DNA of 64,000 bases. Source: Gammaproteobacteria bacterium (GTDB lineage: Bacteria; Pseudomonadota; Gammaproteobacteria; Pseudomonadales; Azotimanducaceae_A). The notes under the pieces were generated by a model, which searched no databases, was not told the origin of the DNA, and worked only from the letters and a program-made list of their open reading frames with translations. Below are positions 6,003 to 60,723 of the stretch, piece after piece; position 1 is the first letter of the stretch; the number at the start of each line of letters is the position of its first letter. Position numbers and translations under genes: made by a program. The DNA is taken from assembly GCA_012960755.1 (NCBI GenBank), contig DUAT01000144.1:62001-126000 (forward strand), given 5' to 3'.

Positions 6003-7598
6003 ATGGCGAATGAACCAGTTGATGTGCTAATTATCGGTGCCGGGGCATCGGGTGCCGCATTTGCGTGGAGTATGGCTGATACTCGAATGAAGATTCTCTG
6101 CATGGAGCAGGGGGACTGGATGAATCCGAGTGATTACCCCAGCACGGGAATGGATTGGGAATCGAGAGAGGACTTCAGCATCAGTCCTAACCGGCGAAAT
6201 AGGGAAACCGACTACCCTATCAATGAAACCAATTCTCCCATTGCTGTCGCCAACTTCAACGGTGTCGGTGGCGGCACTGTTCTCTACGCTGGACATTTCC
6301 CTCGCTTTCACCCATCTGACTTCAGGGTTAAATCCCTGGACGGCGTGGCTGATGACTGGCCAATTGACTACGAAACCCTGGCGCCCTACTACGACGAAAA
6401 TGATCGCATGATGGGCGTCTCGGGTCTTGAAGGTGATCCGGCCTACCCGGACAAGAAGTCAATGATGCCCCCCCTGCCGCTGGGTAAATCCGGTCAGGTT
6501 ATCGCCAGGGGGTTTAACAAAAAGGGCTGGCACTGGTGGCCATCTGATTCTGCAATTGCGACCGAACAATATGATGGCCGGGACAAGTGCATTAATCTTG
6601 GTGCCTGCGTTCACGGCTGTGCCCAGGGGGCCAAAGCCAGTACTGATATCACTTATTGGCCCCATGCGATCCGCGCCGGTGTCGAACTACGAACCCGATG
6701 TCGTGTAAAAGAAATTACAGTGAATGATCAGGGCATGGCAACGGGTGTTATCTACTTCGACGCACAGGGCAACGAGCTTGAACAAAAGGCTGAAGTTGTT
6801 GTGATGGCCTGCAATGGCGTAGGCACACCAAGAATCCTTTTGAATTCTGTCTCCCGGCAATTTCCTGACGGGCTTGCGAACAATAGCGGACTGATTGGAA
6901 AAAATTTCATGTTTCATCCCTATGCTTCTATACAGGGCGTGTTTGAAGATCCGCTGGATGGCAACCATGGCCCACACGATAGTATCTGGAGCCAGGAATT
7001 TTACGAAACAGATCTTTCCCGGGGGTTTGTACGGGGCTACACGTACGAGATCAACAGAGGCAGGGGGCCGGTTGCCACGGCGATGACCGGGGTATTTTCG
7101 GGCCGTATTCCCTGGGGTGAAGGGCATCACCAGGCTTATCGAAAATATGTAAACCGCCTCACTGGCATGGTAGCTATTTGTGAAGATTTACCGGAGCTGC
7201 ACAATACGGTTACCCTGGACCCTGAACTAAAAGACTCAAATGGCATACCAGCCCCCAAGCTCGATTATACGTTGAGCCAAAACAGTAAAGATATGTTGGC
7301 ATTCTCAATCGCACGTGCGTCAGAAGTGCTGCGAGCTGCAGGCGCAACTGACATTCTCTCTGAATCTCCCATTGCTGGCGGTGGCTGGCACCTGATGGGA
7401 ACTGCCCGAATGGGGACGGACCCGGAAAACTCTGTCGTTAATGAATGGGGACGCAGCCATGATGTTCCAAATCTGTTTGTCATTGACGGCAGCATCTTTG
7501 TCACCAGCGCCGGAGTGAATCCGACGCGAACCATACAGGCACTTGCCCTGTATGTGGCAGATTCCATGAAAAAACGGTTGGCGAACCTGTTTGACTAG
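6003..7598 (+). CDS. GMC family oxidoreductase (FAD-dependent dehydrogenase)
   Basis: A 531-residue glucose-methanol-choline oxidoreductase resembling the large subunit of gluconate-type dehydrogenases. An FAD GxGxxG motif (IIGAGASGAAF) is at residues 9-19, GGGTVLYAG lies near 95, and GGWHLMGTARMG near 455 carries the catalytic His. NPTRTIQALAL closes the FAD site. ATG 6003 was chosen because GAGGAGG lies immediately upstream. The gene for the subunit-3-like partner (7886) follows, separated only by a truncated toxin gene. It is probably a periplasm-facing or membrane-attached dehydrogenase, although no signal peptide is visible on this subunit. Confidence 0.88.
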   Translation: MANEPVDVLIIGAGASGAAFAWSMADTRMKILCMEQGDWMNPSDYPSTGMDWESREDFSISPNRRNRETDYPINETNSPIAVANFNGVGGGTVLYAGHFPRFHPSDFRVKSLDGVADDWPIDYETLAPYYDENDRMMGVSGLEGDPAYPDKKSMMPPLPLGKSGQVIARGFNKKGWHWWPSDSAIATEQYDGRDKCINLGACVHGCAQGAKASTDITYWPHAIRAGVELRTRCRVKEITVNDQGMATGVIYFDAQGNELEQKAEVVVMACNGVGTPRILLNSVSRQFPDGLANNSGLIGKNFMFHPYASIQGVFEDPLDGNHGPHDSIWSQEFYETDLSRGFVRGYTYEINRGRGPVATAMTGVFSGRIPWGEGHHQAYRKYVNRLTGMVAICEDLPELHNTVTLDPELKDSNGIPAPKLDYTLSQNSKDMLAFSIARASEVLRAAGATDILSESPIAGGGWHLMGTARMGTDPENSVVNEWGRSHDVPNLFVIDGSIFVTSAGVNPTRTIQALALYVADSMKKRLANLFD

Positions 7599-7629
7599 GA
7601 GGTTGACCGAGCATAGAGAGCTAATTTAG

Positions 7630-7893
7630 ATGACCTATACACCAGAGCGCGGAGATTTTGTGTGGACGGACTTTGACCCTTCGGCCGGACATGAGCAAGC
7701 GCATAAACACCCTGCTATCATCTTGTCGCCCCAAGCTTTCAATGGGAAGTTAAAACTCGCACTTGTCGCGCAGATTACGAGCAGGGTTAGGCAGCACGGA
7801 TTTGAAGTTGCTTTGCGGGACTGCAAAACCAAGGGGCCCATATTATGCATACCGACCTCAATCAGAGGTTCCTTAGGAAATAGCAATGAGTGA
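7630..7893 (+). pseudogene. MazF/PemK-like toxin, C-terminally truncated
   Basis: An 87-residue ORF with the MazF/PemK beginning (RGDFVWTDFDPSAGHEQAH, then KHPAIILSP). It lacks the last 20-25 residues of the usual 105-110, which normally carry the final strand and helix. Similarity stops at PTS, and the tail is encoded by AATCAGAGGTTCCTTAG, a segment also found at 3490-3506. No antitoxin gene precedes it. Its stop overlaps the start of the next gene (ATGAGTGA). It is probably a non-functional remnant left when an element inserted in, or was deleted from, the GMC operon. Confidence 0.65.
7860..7876. repeat. Second copy of AATCAGAGGTTCCTTAG
   Basis: Seventeen bases identical to 3490-3506. Here they lie at the truncation point of the mazF-like gene and directly upstream of the start of the gluconate-dehydrogenase subunit gene. 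The flanking ACCTC/GAGGT can form a small hairpin (7855-7869). This fits a breakpoint scar or the end of a small mobile element. Confidence 0.5.
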
Positions 7894-52889: not shown

Positions 52890-52965
52890 AACAGACCGCC
52901 TGGGGCAGTGAAATTGAACGAGAAGGTGAACCAGCGCACACTTTTTATTGTTGTCTATCGTATTT

Positions 52966-52981
52966 TGTGAAGTTGATCACA
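52966..52981. promoter_or_regulatory. CRP/Vfr-type operator between divergent heme operons
   Basis: TGTGA-AGTTGA-TCACA is a perfect match to the CRP half-sites with the canonical 6-base spacer, flanked by T and A that extend the symmetry. A TATTCT -10-like hexamer lies at 53002-53007. This puts the site about 41 bases upstream of a predicted start near 53014, the class II activator position for the plus-strand operon. It could also act on the minus-strand operon starting near 52850. Confidence 0.65.
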
Positions 52982-53034
52982 AGCGTTTTTGGTTTATCGA
53001 CTATTCTTCAAAAGTACTTATGTGGTCCACCAGA

Positions 53035-55734
53035 ATGACGTTTCGAATAAGATGCATCGCTGCCTTATCCCTCACGTTGGTAGCTAGCGCCTGCCAACAG
53101 GGCGACCCAGGTGGTCTAAGCCTCGCTGTTACTGGCGATAGCCAGGATCCGGACCCAGTCGTCCAGGATTTTCCGCTAGTCTTTATTAGTCGACCGTTCA
53201 TCATTAACGATCAGGGTGATGTTGCATCAAATACCCCAAGGCAACTCAATGTATTTGAACCAGGCGCGCAACTGATCTTAAAAGAACAGGCAATACCCAG
53301 TGCTTTGGAACGCAATATATCGGACGCGGCTTTCACCGACGACACTTCAGGTACTGCACCCTTATATGACGTACGCGATCTGGAGACGGATTACGACGGG
53401 CGTCGCCTCGCATTTTCGATGCGCGGGCCATTTGATCCCGATGCTGACCTGGAAGACCAGCCAACCTGGAACATCTGGGTCTATGATCTGGACACGGACC
53501 AGCTGAGCAGGGTTATCCAATCTGACACTCTGGCCGAAGCAGGCCAGGACAGGGATCCTGCTTTTCTACCTGACGGCCGAATTGTCTTTACCTCAACCAG
53601 GCAACGCCAATCCCGTGCAATTCTGCTGGACGAGGGACGGCCACAATTTGCCGCGCTGGATGAAGACAGAAGGGAAGAGGCTTCGGTACTCCACGTGATG
53701 AACAATGACGGCACGGGTATTGAGCAGCTCACATTCAATCAGAGCCACGACCAGGGTCCAAATCTGCTCAATACCGGTGAGATCATCTTCAGTCGTTGGG
53801 ACAATGTACCCGGGCGCAACTTTATCAGTTTGTATCGTATCAGGCCCGATGGGACACAACTGGAACGTCTGTATGGATATCACAGCCAGGATACCGGGCG
53901 AGATGGCTCCGACATTGCTTTTATGGATCCACGGCAAATGGACGACGACCAGATACTGGTCATCGCCCGGAGCAACAGCAACAGTATCCTTGGTGGTGAT
54001 CTGATGATCATTGACAGCAACAATTTTGTTGAACACGATCAAACGATATTCGATTTTCAGGGCTCTTCAGCAGAGGGACAAACCTCCCCCCTTAGCACCC
54101 TTGTTGAACTCGACGGACCGTCCCCGGGAGGACGATTCGCATCAGCGGTTCCGCTGTTGGATGGAACCAATCGATTGCTGGTCTCCTGGTCGCAGTGTCG
54201 ATTGCTTGAACGCACCCTGGATAGTACCGCCCCGAATGGCGGGGAAATTGTAAACATCGTGCCCTGTACAGACGAACTATTGTCAGTTTCTGATCCTGCA
54301 CCTGAAGAAGCGGACCCATTGTATGGGCTGTGGATATTAAACCTGGATAACGATAGCCAGCAGTCCGTCGTGCCACCTCTGGAAGGTGTTGTGTTCTCAG
54401 AGGCAGTCGTGATGTCTCCACGGCCAAATCCTGATTTCCTTCAACCCCAGTCAGCAGATAATGCCACCCAGTTGCTGATCGACGAGGCCGCAGGCTTGCT
54501 CCATATCCGCAGCGTCTATGATTTCGACGGCATAGATATCGCGCAGCCCGATTTATCAACAATTGCAAACCCGGTACTGACAACTTCCAGCGAAAGAACC
54601 GCTCACTTTTTACGCATGGAGAAACCGGTTTCGTTACCGGATCGAGACCTGGTCGTAATTCCAGGGTCGGCCTTCGGTCGTTCCCGAGGCGAACTCATGC
54701 GAGAAATCATCGGCTACGCCACCGTCCACCCGGATGGATCTGTTTACGTAAAAGTGCCTGCCGACGTACCATTTGCCATTAGCGTCCTTGACGCTAATGG
54801 CAGACGAATCACAGGCCGGCATCGAAACTGGTTGCAGGTGCGCCCCGGTGAGTTGCTTGAATGTAATGGTTGTCATACTTCGAACAGCGAAATTCCCCAT
54901 GGTCGCAGGGATGCACAAGCGCCGTCCATCAATCCTGGCGGACCATACCCGGATCTCGACCCGGCTTTTGCGGCAACCGCCAGTGCATCAATGGCAGAAG
55001 CGTTTGCCGGGCAAAATGGTGCCCCGGACCCGGCGTTTGACCTGGTATTCGACGATCTATGGACTGACCCTGTTCAACGCGGGAAAGATGCGGCTTTCAG
55101 TTACCGGTACAGCGACCTGCAATCCCCTGCACCAATCAACGCCAGTTGCACAACGAACTGGATTTCCAGTTGCCGTGCAACGATCCACTACGAAGCCAAC
55201 ATTCACCCGGTCTGGCAAGTCGACCGACGCATTTTTGATGTTGACGGCACAACCCTGCTTGTTGACCAGACCTGTACGACCTGCCACACGATGACAGACG
55301 ACATGGGCATGGCGCGAGTACCTGAAGGGCAACTCGACCTGACTGACGGGCCTTCCAGCGACGAGCCAGACCATTTTAAAAGTTATCGGGAACTACTGTT
55401 TGGTGATTCAGAACAGGAAGTGGTTAACGGCGTTCTGGTTGATGTCCTTGTACCCGTGCTGGATTCCAACGGCAACCCGACTTTTCTCACCGATGCCAAT
55501 GGTGACCTGGTTCTCGATGCTCTGGGAAACCCGATTCCGATTTTAACAACTGTTGGCGTCCGACCTGCAATGGCTACCGCGGGGGCTCTGGCTTCACCAG
55601 TATTTACTTCTGCTTTTGACAGCACCGGTACACACTCCGGATACCTTTCCGCTGCAGAATTGAAACTGATTTCCGAATGGCTCGATATTGGTGCTCAGTA
55701 CTACAACGATCCGTTCAAGGTTCCGCAGCAGTGA
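53035..55734 (+). CDS. Diheme HzsA-like PD40-propeller lipoprotein
   Basis: An 899-residue lipoprotein (signal RIRCIAALSLTLVASAC; lipobox ASAC). The N-terminal half carries PD40/TolB-like blades: DTDYDG-type DLETDYDGRRLAFSMRG, DPAFLPDGRIVFTSTRQ and LHVMNNDGTGIEQLTFN. The C-terminal half has CNGCH (610-614), after VRPGELLE, and CTTCH (747-751). This order of propeller then cytochrome resembles the alpha subunit of hydrazine synthase and its many uncharacterised relatives. No sign of anammox metabolism is present, so the function is unknown. ATG 53020 is an alternative start. First gene of a five-gene operon. Confidence 0.8.
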   Translation: MTFRIRCIAALSLTLVASACQQGDPGGLSLAVTGDSQDPDPVVQDFPLVFISRPFIINDQGDVASNTPRQLNVFEPGAQLILKEQAIPSALERNISDAAFTDDTSGTAPLYDVRDLETDYDGRRLAFSMRGPFDPDADLEDQPTWNIWVYDLDTDQLSRVIQSDTLAEAGQDRDPAFLPDGRIVFTSTRQRQSRAILLDEGRPQFAALDEDRREEASVLHVMNNDGTGIEQLTFNQSHDQGPNLLNTGEIIFSRWDNVPGRNFISLYRIRPDGTQLERLYGYHSQDTGRDGSDIAFMDPRQMDDDQILVIARSNSNSILGGDLMIIDSNNFVEHDQTIFDFQGSSAEGQTSPLSTLVELDGPSPGGRFASAVPLLDGTNRLLVSWSQCRLLERTLDSTAPNGGEIVNIVPCTDELLSVSDPAPEEADPLYGLWILNLDNDSQQSVVPPLEGVVFSEAVVMSPRPNPDFLQPQSADNATQLLIDEAAGLLHIRSVYDFDGIDIAQPDLSTIANPVLTTSSERTAHFLRMEKPVSLPDRDLVVIPGSAFGRSRGELMREIIGYATVHPDGSVYVKVPADVPFAISVLDANGRRITGRHRNWLQVRPGELLECNGCHTSNSEIPHGRRDAQAPSINPGGPYPDLDPAFAATASASMAEAFAGQNGAPDPAFDLVFDDLWTDPVQRGKDAAFSYRYSDLQSPAPINASCTTNWISSCRATIHYEANIHPVWQVDRRIFDVDGTTLLVDQTCTTCHTMTDDMGMARVPEGQLDLTDGPSSDEPDHFKSYRELLFGDSEQEVVNGVLVDVLVPVLDSNGNPTFLTDANGDLVLDALGNPIPILTTVGVRPAMATAGALASPVFTSAFDSTGTHSGYLSAAELKLISEWLDIGAQYYNDPFKVPQQ

Positions 55735-57237: not shown

Positions 57238-57477
57238 ATGAGACAGGTCCAAAGAATGATCCTGACACTATCAATGGTCACAGCAACCCTGAGTCTGGCG
57301 AGTTGCGTGTCTATTGAGCCCTGGGTAAGCCCATTTGAACGTAATGCGCTGGCTGACCCGATTATGACGTTCTCTCGAGGGTCCGCTGACGCGGCATACA
57401 TCCACCATGTACACCAGGCCAGAGAAGGGGCAAGGGGTGCAGAAGGTGGCTCCGGGGGCGGTTGTGGTTGTAACTAA
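57238..57477 (+). CDS. DUF4266 lipoprotein with C-terminal GGGCGCN
   Basis: A 79-residue lipoprotein (lipobox LASC, Cys23). The mature protein has the DUF4266 core VSPFERNALADPIMTF, and the tail GGSGGGCGCN ends two residues after paired cysteines. AAAGGAG lies 8 bases before the ATG. The partner DUF3570 gene starts 2 bases after its stop. The DUF4266-DUF3570 pair is a known gene neighbourhood of unknown function. The flexible Gly tail with Cys-Gly-Cys could bind metal or be a site for thiol exchange or modification by the thioredoxin-fused protein downstream. Confidence 0.85.
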   Translation: MRQVQRMILTLSMVTATLSLASCVSIEPWVSPFERNALADPIMTFSRGSADAAYIHHVHQAREGARGAEGGSGGGCGCN

Positions 57478-57478
57478 T

Positions 57479-58621
57479 ATGACTGTGACGAGACACCTGC
57501 TGACGGTATTGGTTTGTCTGTCAACACTGCTGTCTGCGTCCGCTATTGCAAAAATACTACCGGAAGACCGGGCAGACGTTTTATGGCACAGCTATGAGGG
57601 TGATAACGTCACCATCAATGGTCCTTCAGTTCTGATACGCAAGGCTTACCAGGACAAGATCTCGGTCTGGGGAAATTACTACGTGGATATGATTTCCGGC
57701 GCATCCATCGACGTAAAAGCGACCGCCTCAGCTTACTCGGAGGAGAGGCAGGAATTCAGTCTCGGTGCAGATTACCTTTACGACAAAACCCTGTTGGGGA
57801 TTGGCTTCACCCGAAGCCAGGAAGATGACTATGACGCCAGCACATTCAGGTTCAACCTCAGCCAGGATTTTTTTGGTGACCTGACAACACTATCAATGGG
57901 TTATGCCTATGGTGATGACACCGTACGGCGCAACGGTGACGATACCTTCGAAGCAGGTGCAATCCATCAGTCCTACAAGGTCGAACTCTCGCAGATCCTC
58001 ACAAAACGTATGATCATGAACTTCGGATACGAGGCCGTTGTCGACGAAGGCTTCTTGAATAATCCCTATCGCTCGGTTCGCTTTGTCGACCCCACCGTTC
58101 AACTGGGGTATAGCTACCAGGCCGAACTGTACCCTAATACCAGATCCAGTGACGCGGCTGCTATTCGCACCATGGTCTATCTTCCGTATCGAGCCGCACT
58201 GCGCGGTGAATATCGCTACTACTCGGATTCCTGGGGAATAACAGCACATAATGGCGAGGTATCCTATACTCACCCCTGGCGCAGACACTGGGAGTTTGAT
58301 GTAAAGTTCCGCTACTATTCACAAACCAGCGCCAGCTTCTATAGCGACCTTTTCCCTTACCGGAACGCTCAAAATTTTCTGGCGAGAGATAAGGAACTCG
58401 CCACCTTTGATAGTACAACTGCGGGCATTGGTGTGTCTTATCTGTTTAATGAGGAAGGATTCCTGTTCTTCAGTCGCGGTTCGGTGAACCTTTATCTCGA
58501 CTACATGATGTTTGACTACAAGGACTTCAACAATGTCCTCGCCGGTGGTACCGTTGGTGAAGAACCCGCCTTTAATTTTAATGCCGTGGTTTTCAGGGCG
58601 TATTTGTCACTCTGGTTTTAG
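57479..58621 (+). CDS. DUF3570 outer-membrane protein
   Basis: A 380-residue beta-barrel protein with a signal peptide (cleavage near AIA-KI). DUF3570 features include the opening DVLWHSYEGDNVTINGPSVL then VSVWGNYYVD-like strands (KISVWGNYYVDMISGASIDV), many alternating strands, and a terminal LSLWF aromatic. It is probably a 14-16-strand outer-membrane channel or assembly platform. ATG 57479 is preferred over upstream frames that would overlap DUF4266. It partners the DUF4266 lipoprotein and is followed by a terminator. Confidence 0.86.
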   Translation: MTVTRHLLTVLVCLSTLLSASAIAKILPEDRADVLWHSYEGDNVTINGPSVLIRKAYQDKISVWGNYYVDMISGASIDVKATASAYSEERQEFSLGADYLYDKTLLGIGFTRSQEDDYDASTFRFNLSQDFFGDLTTLSMGYAYGDDTVRRNGDDTFEAGAIHQSYKVELSQILTKRMIMNFGYEAVVDEGFLNNPYRSVRFVDPTVQLGYSYQAELYPNTRSSDAAAIRTMVYLPYRAALRGEYRYYSDSWGITAHNGEVSYTHPWRRHWEFDVKFRYYSQTSASFYSDLFPYRNAQNFLARDKELATFDSTTAGIGVSYLFNEEGFLFFSRGSVNLYLDYMMFDYKDFNNVLAGGTVGEEPAFNFNAVVFRAYLSLWF

Positions 58622-58708: not shown

Positions 58709-59455
58709 ATGAACGTTGCCAAGTGGATAATAATGTCATCCATCGCAATCGCCTCTTTTTCCAGCTCTTTCTCAGAATCACTCGCATCGGCCAGCGACTC
58801 TGTCGACGACAAGATGTCACGTATAACCATTGTCGTTGATGGCATGATGAAAAGTAAAAGCGGTGCGACCTGACTAAGCTGACCAGATTCGGTCTCAGCT
58901 GCTCTGTCAGAGCTAGCAGGTGTTAACAACGTAACGGTGGCCCTTGAGACCGACGAGTTTACCGTGACCTATGACGGGCGTCTCGCAACGGCTAAAGAAA
59001 TGAAAGATGCGATTAGCGATTTGGGATATGTACCGAAGGTCGTTGAAAGTCGTTTTGCTGGAACAAACTTAACCGGGACATCCGTCGATTCTGCAAAAGG
59101 CCCGATCCCGGAACCGGTCGCATCGGCAGTAACCCAGGCGGGTGATACAGGCAAACTCGTGTTTATTGATTTTTATGCAGAGTGGTGTGGCGCCTGTAAA
59201 ATACTGGATAGAACCACCCTGAAAGATCCCGCTGTGCTAACAACGCTTGAGCAGTTTGTGTTCCTCAAGGTTGATGCAGACCAGTATCCTGATGCCATAA
59301 TCCATTTTAAGATCGTGGGTATGCCTACACTTGTTGTGCTGAATGCGCTCGGTGAAGAAGTCTTCCGGCAAGTGGGACCCATAACAGCAGACAGGCTTGT
59401 AAGTGAGCTGGCACTCATAATTGCTGTCTTTGAGCAAAAATCAGTGAGTCGCTGA
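58709..59455 (+). CDS. Exported HMA(UxxU)-thioredoxin fusion, predicted double-selenocysteine protein
   Basis: Read from ATG 58709 with UGA as Sec, this is one 248-residue frame. It has a signal peptide (MNVAKWIIMSSIAIASFSSS, cleavage near ASA-SD) and an HMA domain from about 38 to 110 (RITIVVDGMMKSKSGAT, then ULSUPDSVSAALSELAGV, and AISDLGYVPKVV). A thioredoxin domain lies at about 145-240 with WCGAC (Cys160, Cys163) and cis-Pro GMPTLV. The two UGAs (58871, 58880; residues 55 and 58) fall exactly at the HMA CxxC positions, matching CxxCxxxVxxAL...GV. Frame, signal and domains on both sides are intact. Likely a periplasmic metal- or selenol-based redox protein serving the DUF4266/DUF3570 genes. 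Standard callers would start it at GTG 58937 and lose the HMA. Confidence 0.82.
58898..58917 (+). promoter_or_regulatory. Candidate bacterial SECIS element
   Basis: GCT-GCTCT-GTC-AGAGC-T-AGC folds as an 8-bp stem with one bulged U and an apical GUC loop, so a GU sits in the loop as SelB-binding hairpins require. The loop G (58906) is 24 bases after the second UGA and 33 after the first, both within the range described for bacterial SECIS elements (roughly 16-37). One hairpin could serve both codons. The fold was done by eye. Confidence 0.6.
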
Positions 59456-60723
59456 TTTTTCTAATTTACCATCTTTAATGACGGTCGTAACCTGAGTTAA
59501 GGCACTAACATCCTGCAACGGGTTACCTTGCACGGCAATCAGATCGGCCAGTTTTCCCACTTCCAACGTTCCCAGCTTGTCAGAAATTTCAAGTAGTTCT
59601 GCTGCCACGACGGTGGCTGAGTGGATCGCCTGCGCAGGTGACATTCCGGCAGCGACCATCAGCTCAAATTCCAGGGCATTCTGACCGTGAGGTGTGACAC
59701 CAGTATCAGTGCCAAACGCAATCTTAACCCCGGCTTTTTGCGCCATGGCAAAACTTGCCCGGGATCCGCTGGCAGCAAGATTTGCCTTTTGCTTGATTGC
59801 ATCGGTGAAGTAAGGATTGCCTTCCATGGAGAGCGGCACATAGTGACCCGGCATCAATGTTGGCACCAGGTAGGCACCATGCTTTTTGAACAATCGAATG
59901 GATTCCTTATCAAGGAATGTCCCATGGTCAATTGAGTCAACACCTGCTCGCAGTGCGGCATTAACACCGTCCGTGCCGTGAGCATGTGCGGCAACTTTGC
60001 GACCCAGGTTGTGTGCTGTGTTCATGATTTCATAGAGTTCATCGTCGGTCATCTGAACACCGAGTCCTGTAGCCGTGTCTGACAGCACCCCACCGGTGGC
60101 AGTCACTTTGATCCAGTCCGCACCGTACTTGACGGCGTGCCTGGTTGCCTTTCGGCAGGCCACGACACCATCGCATATCGTCTCCGGTGTCCATAGTTTC
60201 ATCAGATCGGCGCGGATGCCATCAATGTCACCATGCCCCCGGTCGCCGCAAGTGAGGAACCCGCTGCGTAAACACGAGGGCCTGGAATAAGATTTGTTTT
60301 TATCGCGTCACGAATTGCATAAATTGACTCAGGCGATCCGCCCAGATCCCTCACCGTCGTGAAACCTGCATAAAGCGTTTTCCTGGCATTGTTTACACCG
60401 CGCAGCAGGGTAAAAGTTTCGTTCTCAGTGACAGTGCGTGATCTTGACCCTGGCCCAAGTTCGATCAGCAAATGCACATGCAAGTCCATTAACCCAGGTA
60501 AGACAAACTGATCTTTCAGGTCCAGCAGTCTGGCACCTGCTGCAGGATTAACAAACCCGTCAGCTAACTCAGTGATCTTGTTATCGGATATCACAATGGT
60601 CTGGTTTTTTAAAGGTGGTTTTCCCGGTACTGCTAATAATGTCCCAACATGCAGCACGAGATTGTCTGCAAAGGCAGCAGGGCAAACACAGAATAAAATT
60701 ATCAAACAGATTGATCAGCGCAT
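59441..60723 (-). pseudogene. Exported amidohydrolase (imidazolonepropionase-like), frameshifted
   Basis: Two frames together give one amidohydrolase_1 enzyme. The first (60202-60705, TTG start) has a signal peptide and VLPGLMDLHVHLLIELGP (HxH) and ends VYAAGSSLAATGG, then shifts. The second, ending at 59441, contains GADWIKVTATGG, VAAHAHGTDGVNAAL, DSIDHGTFLD and IAFGTDTGVTPHG (Asp) and IKDGKL. The join fails because one base is missing next to CCCCC at about 60233-60240; adding it gives GGHGDIDGIRADLMKLW. An ATG at 60723 is in frame but followed by TGA at codon 3. It overlaps the end of the convergent Sec gene by 15 bases. Confidence 0.75.

Follow-up and report, generated by a model that had tools for sequence, protein, structure and literature searches.

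What protein is encoded by a frame in which two UGA codons fall exactly on the two cysteine positions of a metal-binding motif? This question is raised by a gene at positions 58709-59455 of a 64,000-nucleotide stretch of gammaproteobacterial DNA (hereafter, the window). The gene and all of its features given below lie on the + strand.

The frame encodes an HMA-thioredoxin fusion with two UGAs at the metal site

With UGA read as selenocysteine (Sec), 58709-59455 translates into a predicted selenoprotein of 248 residues with a putatively exported N-terminus, an HMA domain, a linker and a thioredoxin domain, and it terminates at the UGA stop at 59453-59455. A preliminary description of the locus had claimed that this frame is interrupted only at the Cys sites of the HMA motif, and this is what we found: the internal UGAs at 58871-58873 and 58880-58882 (predicted Sec55 and Sec58) occupy both Cys positions of CxxC. 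Pfam matched HMA at residues 50-107 (E 3.9e-11) and Thioredoxin at residues 148-234 (E 6.6e-15), both above cut-off. In the structural model, the HMA domain covers residues 36-112 (58814-59044). The thioredoxin domain, which is DsbD-gamma-like, lies at 59150-59410 and carries a CGAC active-site motif (C160, C163) at 59186-59197. Fold comparison placed MerP among the best matches for the HMA half and DsbD gamma for the thioredoxin half; copper HMA domains fit the HMA model as well as MerP does.

The first 90 nucleotides (58709-58798) encode a hydrophobic segment that is likely an export signal. Its best 12-residue Kyte-Doolittle mean is 1.9, in a range of 1.9-3.1 for 12 of the 13 family members described below, and the same scan found no hydrophobic N-terminal segment in the remaining one (L011). 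On this prediction, which uses hydropathy only, the protein would be periplasmic. Translation may alternatively start at ATG 58733, the position equivalent to the first residue of a database protein 72% identical to the fusion (P0003).

Standard gene calling starts after both UGAs and therefore drops the signal and the metal site, leaving the thioredoxin alone. The standard-code ORF begins at GTG 58937, as had been pointed out, and a database entry identical to the window (P0002, 163 aa) starts even later.

Both UGAs are kept throughout the family

We searched for relatives by a tblastn-confirmed scan of species genomes, which returned 27 loci, 11 of them with both domains (L001-L011). The 16 others (L012-L027) hold the thioredoxin half only and are left out of all counts. 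A twelfth gene, L081, was located in the genome of L007. These 12 relatives are spread over nine genomes (11/12 from gammaproteobacterial or proteobacterial assemblies, 1/12 from a planctomycete), and each has two internal UGAs and no more, always at the same pair of codons. Both CxxC positions are thus UGA in 13/13 genes, in the context GMMKS-x-x-G-x-T-U-x-x-U-P; since all 12 other genes carry the pair at the same codons, it is not there by chance. The thioredoxin motif is equally stable (W159, C160, A162 and C163 invariant in 13/13). The MKSKSGAT segment that precedes the metal motif (58847-58870) had been taken as the sign of a dedicated family, a view that the alignment upholds: G45, M46, M47, K48, S49, G52 and T54 are invariant in the 13 genes, including the planctomycete copy, which is 29% identical overall.

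Three protein searches (a protein search, an HMA-only profile and a full-length profile) yielded 88 distinct database proteins, none of which is a Cys version (GM...CxxC); the reach of the two profile searches was limited to proteins with short exact words in common with the query, and the full-length one scored the best 7991 candidates. Only six of the 88 span the metal site; each of them shows Trp at the two positions, which we attribute to a gene caller that reads UGA as Trp. The remaining entries start past the UGAs or belong to other thioredoxin proteins, which lack the motif. The preliminary description had called for a count of residues at the two sites in homologues, and unrelated residues occurred in none of the 13 genes and six spanning proteins. 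At every readable site, the HMA-thioredoxin family reads UxxU. Two of the database proteins, P0018 and P0026, have an extra HMA-like stretch after the thioredoxin with an ordinary Cys motif (GLACPFC); their N-termini begin past the UGAs, and their full layout is not visible.

The family is rare among the matches listed in a draw of 369 Gammaproteobacteria. The query had a match in 277 of these genomes, yet the HMA part was spanned only by the two copies of the centre genome; the next matches align from about residue 100 and resemble DsbD-type thioredoxin domains. Among plasmids, 60 records matched, none over 80% of the query, and the best eight of the 60 cover the thioredoxin part only.

Judged by its substitutions, the frame ahead of the UGAs evolves as protein: in the 18 codons that lead up to the first UGA, pN/pS is 0.21 for the protein frame and 1.93 and 1.24 for the two others (12 of the 13 sequences; L011 was excluded as too distant). 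UGA is also an ordinary stop in the window, where 55 long frames end in 22 UGA, 22 UAG and 11 UAA codons.

A covarying hairpin lies within SECIS distance of both UGAs

A SECIS-like hairpin is found at 58898-58917, with a stem pairing 58898-58905 with 58909-58917 (58914 unpaired) around the triloop GUC (58906-58908). It lies 32 nt past the first UGA and 23 nt past the second. A 2026 review (PMC13188914) gives the rules for bacterial SECIS elements as a loop of 3-9 nt, a stem of 4-16 bp, a G at loop position 1 or 2, a distance of 16-37 nt from the UGA and a minimum free energy of -7.5 kcal/mol or lower. The hairpin agrees with the rules on shape and spacing, and both its G-first triloop and its 5-bp core are present in 13/13 sequences. 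As both distances fall within 16-37 nt, a single hairpin fits both UGAs. The bare 20-nt hairpin reaches the energy limit in 11/13 sequences (-7.9 kcal/mol in the window), while L005 (-7.0) and L009 (-6.2) miss it.

In the alignment of the 13 sequences, 92.3% of cells are paired, both sides have changed in four of the eight pairs (nine cells) and covariation scores 0.280; none of 500 shuffles reached any of these three values, and slid versions of the hairpin attained at most 49% paired cells and two both-side-changed pairs. A further measure, the number of further pair types, was reached by 163/500 shuffles. The five inner pairs hold in all 13 sequences; the three outer pairs are kept less strictly, one being open in 1, one in 5 and one in 2 of the 13. 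Run independently, RNAalifold gave the same inner stem. The core kept by all 13 survives in just 2-7% of synonymous recodings per sequence, a figure that is no probability, since the sequences are related. Synonymous change is also reduced in the 13 codons past the second UGA (pS 0.34 vs 0.72 upstream), as expected for an RNA element overlapping the code. Folding of the window's hairpin region as a single sequence gave a structure no stabler than shuffles (z 0.01). From the alignment and spacing, SelB would serve both UGAs through this one hairpin, with Sec predicted to be inserted at each.

We rejected a second candidate hairpin at 58881-58894: 89.2% of its cells are paired, but its covariation was matched by 24/500 shuffles and its paired cells by 26/500, and it has broken pairs in 3/13 sequences.

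Most relative genomes encode the selenium machinery

The search for sel genes that the preliminary description had suggested was run on the relatives, and it found selA, selB, selD and tRNA-Sec together in seven of the nine genomes. Taken singly, selA and selB were each above cut-off in 8/9 genomes and selD in 9/9, and ARAGORN recognized a tRNA-Sec with anticodon UCA in 7/9. The two incomplete genomes are G002 (a 3.1-Mb assembly), where only selD was found and selA, selB and tRNA-Sec were not, and G009, with no recognized tRNA-Sec. An Rfam tRNA-Sec match in G002 was discarded, being tRNA-Ser according to ARAGORN. The 64-kb window itself yielded no SelA, SelB or tRNA-Sec. Two of the selD matches (G007:C12:295182-296105 and G009:C70:30451-31374) contain one in-frame UGA each and probably encode a Sec-containing SelD.

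Mercury-type genes recur beside the fusion in relatives

We then considered the neighbours of the fusion. A MerR-family regulator is adjacent in 7/12 relatives (L001, L006-L010 and L081), although all nine relative genomes together hold only 47 MerR_1 matches; the other five relatives have no MerR neighbour within the stretch examined. Three cysteines are invariant across the seven adjacent regulators, at positions that we take to be the Hg-ligand positions of MerR. For the four regulators scored against family models, the MerR model was best in every case, but at 128-134 against a cut-off of 150.85, and the scores of the CueR, ZntR and CadR models came close. MerT is encoded at most two genes away in two of the 12 relatives (L002 and L081). 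The fullest arrangement is at L125, the L081 locus in genome G006, where merA, a merP-like CxxC gene and merT are followed by merR and the fusion in convergent orientation. The MerA encoded there (539 bits, cut-off 454) is the sole one above cut-off in the nine genomes. The earlier proposal that the UxxU pair binds a soft metal is thus strengthened in part, gaining support from the MerR, MerT and MerA neighbours of relatives.

At two loci, neighbours of the copper/silver RND efflux type occur. Near the fusion, L006 has a CusA/CzcA-family pump (1216 bits, cut-off 701) and L009 another (591 bits, under cut-off), with CusB-like adaptors, and L009 also has a RicR-like copper repressor under cut-off nearby. 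Membrane proteins near the fusion in L006 (9365-10306), L007 (9513-10052) and L010 (5741-6283) form one cluster, and one at L125:5147-5677 is weakly YgaP-like, under cut-off. In L002, a probable selenoprotein frame lies between MerT and the fusion (7063-7641, +), with one in-frame UGA and the motif GPTUGVC; it has no Pfam or NCBIfam match.

Around the window copy, there is no mer gene and no MerR-type neighbour. It comes after DUF4266 and DUF3570 genes. A functional link to these was considered and rejected: DUF3570 is present in 8/9 relative genomes and never on the fusion-bearing contig, and because it always lies on other contigs there, the arrangement in the window is not taken as evidence. 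A motif scan showed a thioredoxin-motif gene adjoining the DUF4266-DUF3570 pair (57238-58621, +, in the window; L110-L112) in three of the eight copies of relatives.

The fusion differs from catalogued selenoproteins

UxxU proteins of the HMA type are already catalogued, as the preliminary description had indicated: PMC9312934 lists a "putative mercuric reductase" with UxxU, PMC13188914 a metal-binding protein with UxxU and two Sec, and an NCBIfam model, NF041115, describes a UxxU metal-binding (seleno)protein. Sec-containing MerP sequences are listed in the GOS survey (PMC2398784), with neither motif nor fusion given in the part available. NF041115 shares with the fusion an HMA-type domain and two Sec in UxxU, but its model has 74 positions and no thioredoxin, and the fusion stays below its cut-off (40.5 bits vs 95); no match above this cut-off occurs in any of the nine relative genomes.

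MerP (TIGR02052; PDB 1osd) resembles the fusion in its HMA fold, its predicted export and, at L125, the company of merR, merT and merA. Unlike MerP, the fusion has a predicted UxxU for CxxC, a longer loop before the motif and a fused thioredoxin; it scores 36.3 bits, below the cut-off of 92.55, and L125 has a separate CxxC MerP-like gene besides it. The MerT/CopZ fusion-like heavy-metal transport selenoprotein (NF045683) likewise combines Sec with an HMA part and is tied to mercury-type transport, but it has a MerT membrane part where the fusion has thioredoxin (21.1 bits, below the cut-off of 375). In structure, the thioredoxin half matches best to DsbD gamma, the C-terminal thioredoxin domain of DsbD (NF001419), yet the fusion lacks the DsbD membrane domain and scores 61.3 bits vs 330, with the C-terminal thioredoxin part alone aligned. 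Finally, the rhodanese/DsbD fusion-like selenoprotein TsoB (NF045694) also has a double Sec and a DsbD-like part, as described in PMC13188914, but with rhodanese instead of HMA and a UxxxxU motif (51.3 bits vs 805). In the open-licence full-text literature, we found no report of an HMA-UxxU-thioredoxin fusion, of its conserved MKSKSGAT insert or of the linkage to mer genes.

A mercury-capturing selenol pair is the favored reading

Our preferred reading, to which we give a probability of about one half, is that the gene encodes an exported MerP-like HMA selenoprotein that likely captures Hg(II) or a similar soft metal, with both ligands encoded by UGA, one hairpin shared between them and a DsbD-gamma-like thioredoxin reducing the selenium pair. 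Exported HMA domains with CxxC hold a soft metal by two thiols, and selenols bind Hg(II) more tightly than thiols do. In this scheme, both UGAs would be decoded as Sec via SelB and the single hairpin, and the exported pair would hold Hg(II) in the manner of the MerP thiols but more tightly. Because a periplasmic selenol pair should oxidize readily, the thioredoxin would give electrons in cis: in the oxidizing periplasm, diselenide formation within the pair would be favored, and the fused WCGAC domain would reverse it after being charged by a membrane thiol carrier. A point against this step is that reducing a diselenide is harder than reducing a disulfide. DsbD is the natural electron source for a DsbD-gamma-like thioredoxin; in the nine relative genomes, it was above cut-off in four, partial in four and not found in one. 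Once captured, the metal would be handed to MerT/MerP-type transport and to MerA in genomes that have them, or to RND efflux, or would stay sequestered. Sec insertion, the identity of the metal and the reductase step of WCGAC are all proposed here. Counting against this reading are the lack of mer and sel genes around the window copy, the five relatives with no adjoining MerR, the regulator scores below the MerR cut-off, the single MerA above cut-off, the copper/silver-type genes of L006 and L009, the incomplete selenium sets of G002 and G009, the missing hydrophobic N-terminus of L011, the unremarkable folding energy of the window hairpin and the patchy occurrence of DsbD.

More tentatively, the fusion could be a dedicated resistance protein under MerR control: a periplasmic diselenol trap, always UxxU and never CxxC, that would outcompete MerP for Hg(II) and be opened by its thioredoxin, with one SECIS recoding two UGAs nine bases apart. 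The affinity between selenium and mercury is usually treated as a matter of toxicology; a family apparently with two Sec at a mercury-type site, for which no Cys version was found, would put it to use. The gene would also offer a natural example of two UGAs, nine bases apart, that a single bacterial SECIS apparently serves.

An unlikely alternative is a selenium-dependent periplasmic oxidoreductase, in which UxxU on the HMA fold would cycle between diselenol and diselenide and be recycled by the thioredoxin, its substrate being oxidized thiols, peroxides or metalloid oxyanions rather than a metal. According to PMC9312934, most of the Sec proteins known are redox proteins. The thioredoxin fused to the UxxU site, the second likely redox selenoprotein (UGVC) adjoining the fusion in L002 and the five of 12 relatives without an adjoining MerR are also consistent with it, whereas MerR beside seven relatives, MerT near two and the location of UxxU at the site of a metal-binding fold argue for a metal. 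Cu(I) or Ag(I) in place of mercury is a still less probable choice. The architecture would be unchanged, and the protein would act as a selenol chaperone that supplies Cus-type RND efflux, in line with the CusA/CzcA-family pumps and CusB-like adaptors near L006 and L009, the under-cut-off RicR-like repressor of L009 and the equal fit of copper HMA domains. Against this, MerR ranks first for 4/4 regulators scored, all seven regulators keep a third cysteine, which CueR is not known to have, and merA, merT and merP adjoin the fusion in L125. That the UGAs are Trp codons or true stops, through an alternative code, a pseudogene or a sequencing error, with the thioredoxin part alone being made, is highly improbable: Trp at both sites of six database proteins and the absence of selA and selB from G002 would suit it, but we discarded it on the UGA pair conserved in 13/13 genes, the protein selection ahead of it (pN/pS), the covarying hairpin, the frequent use of UGA as a stop (22/55 long frames) and the tRNA-Sec with anticodon UCA in 7/9 genomes.

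Other observations in the window

On the opposite strand, an amidohydrolase-type gene (59441-60705, -) is seemingly split into two frames that meet at TGATG near 60202, a frame break that is either real or a sequencing error; the check for Pfam Amidohydro_1 covered the downstream piece. At 52948-55734 (+), a large protein with CxxCH motifs matches the middle domain of hydrazine synthase alpha (E 5.3e-15).
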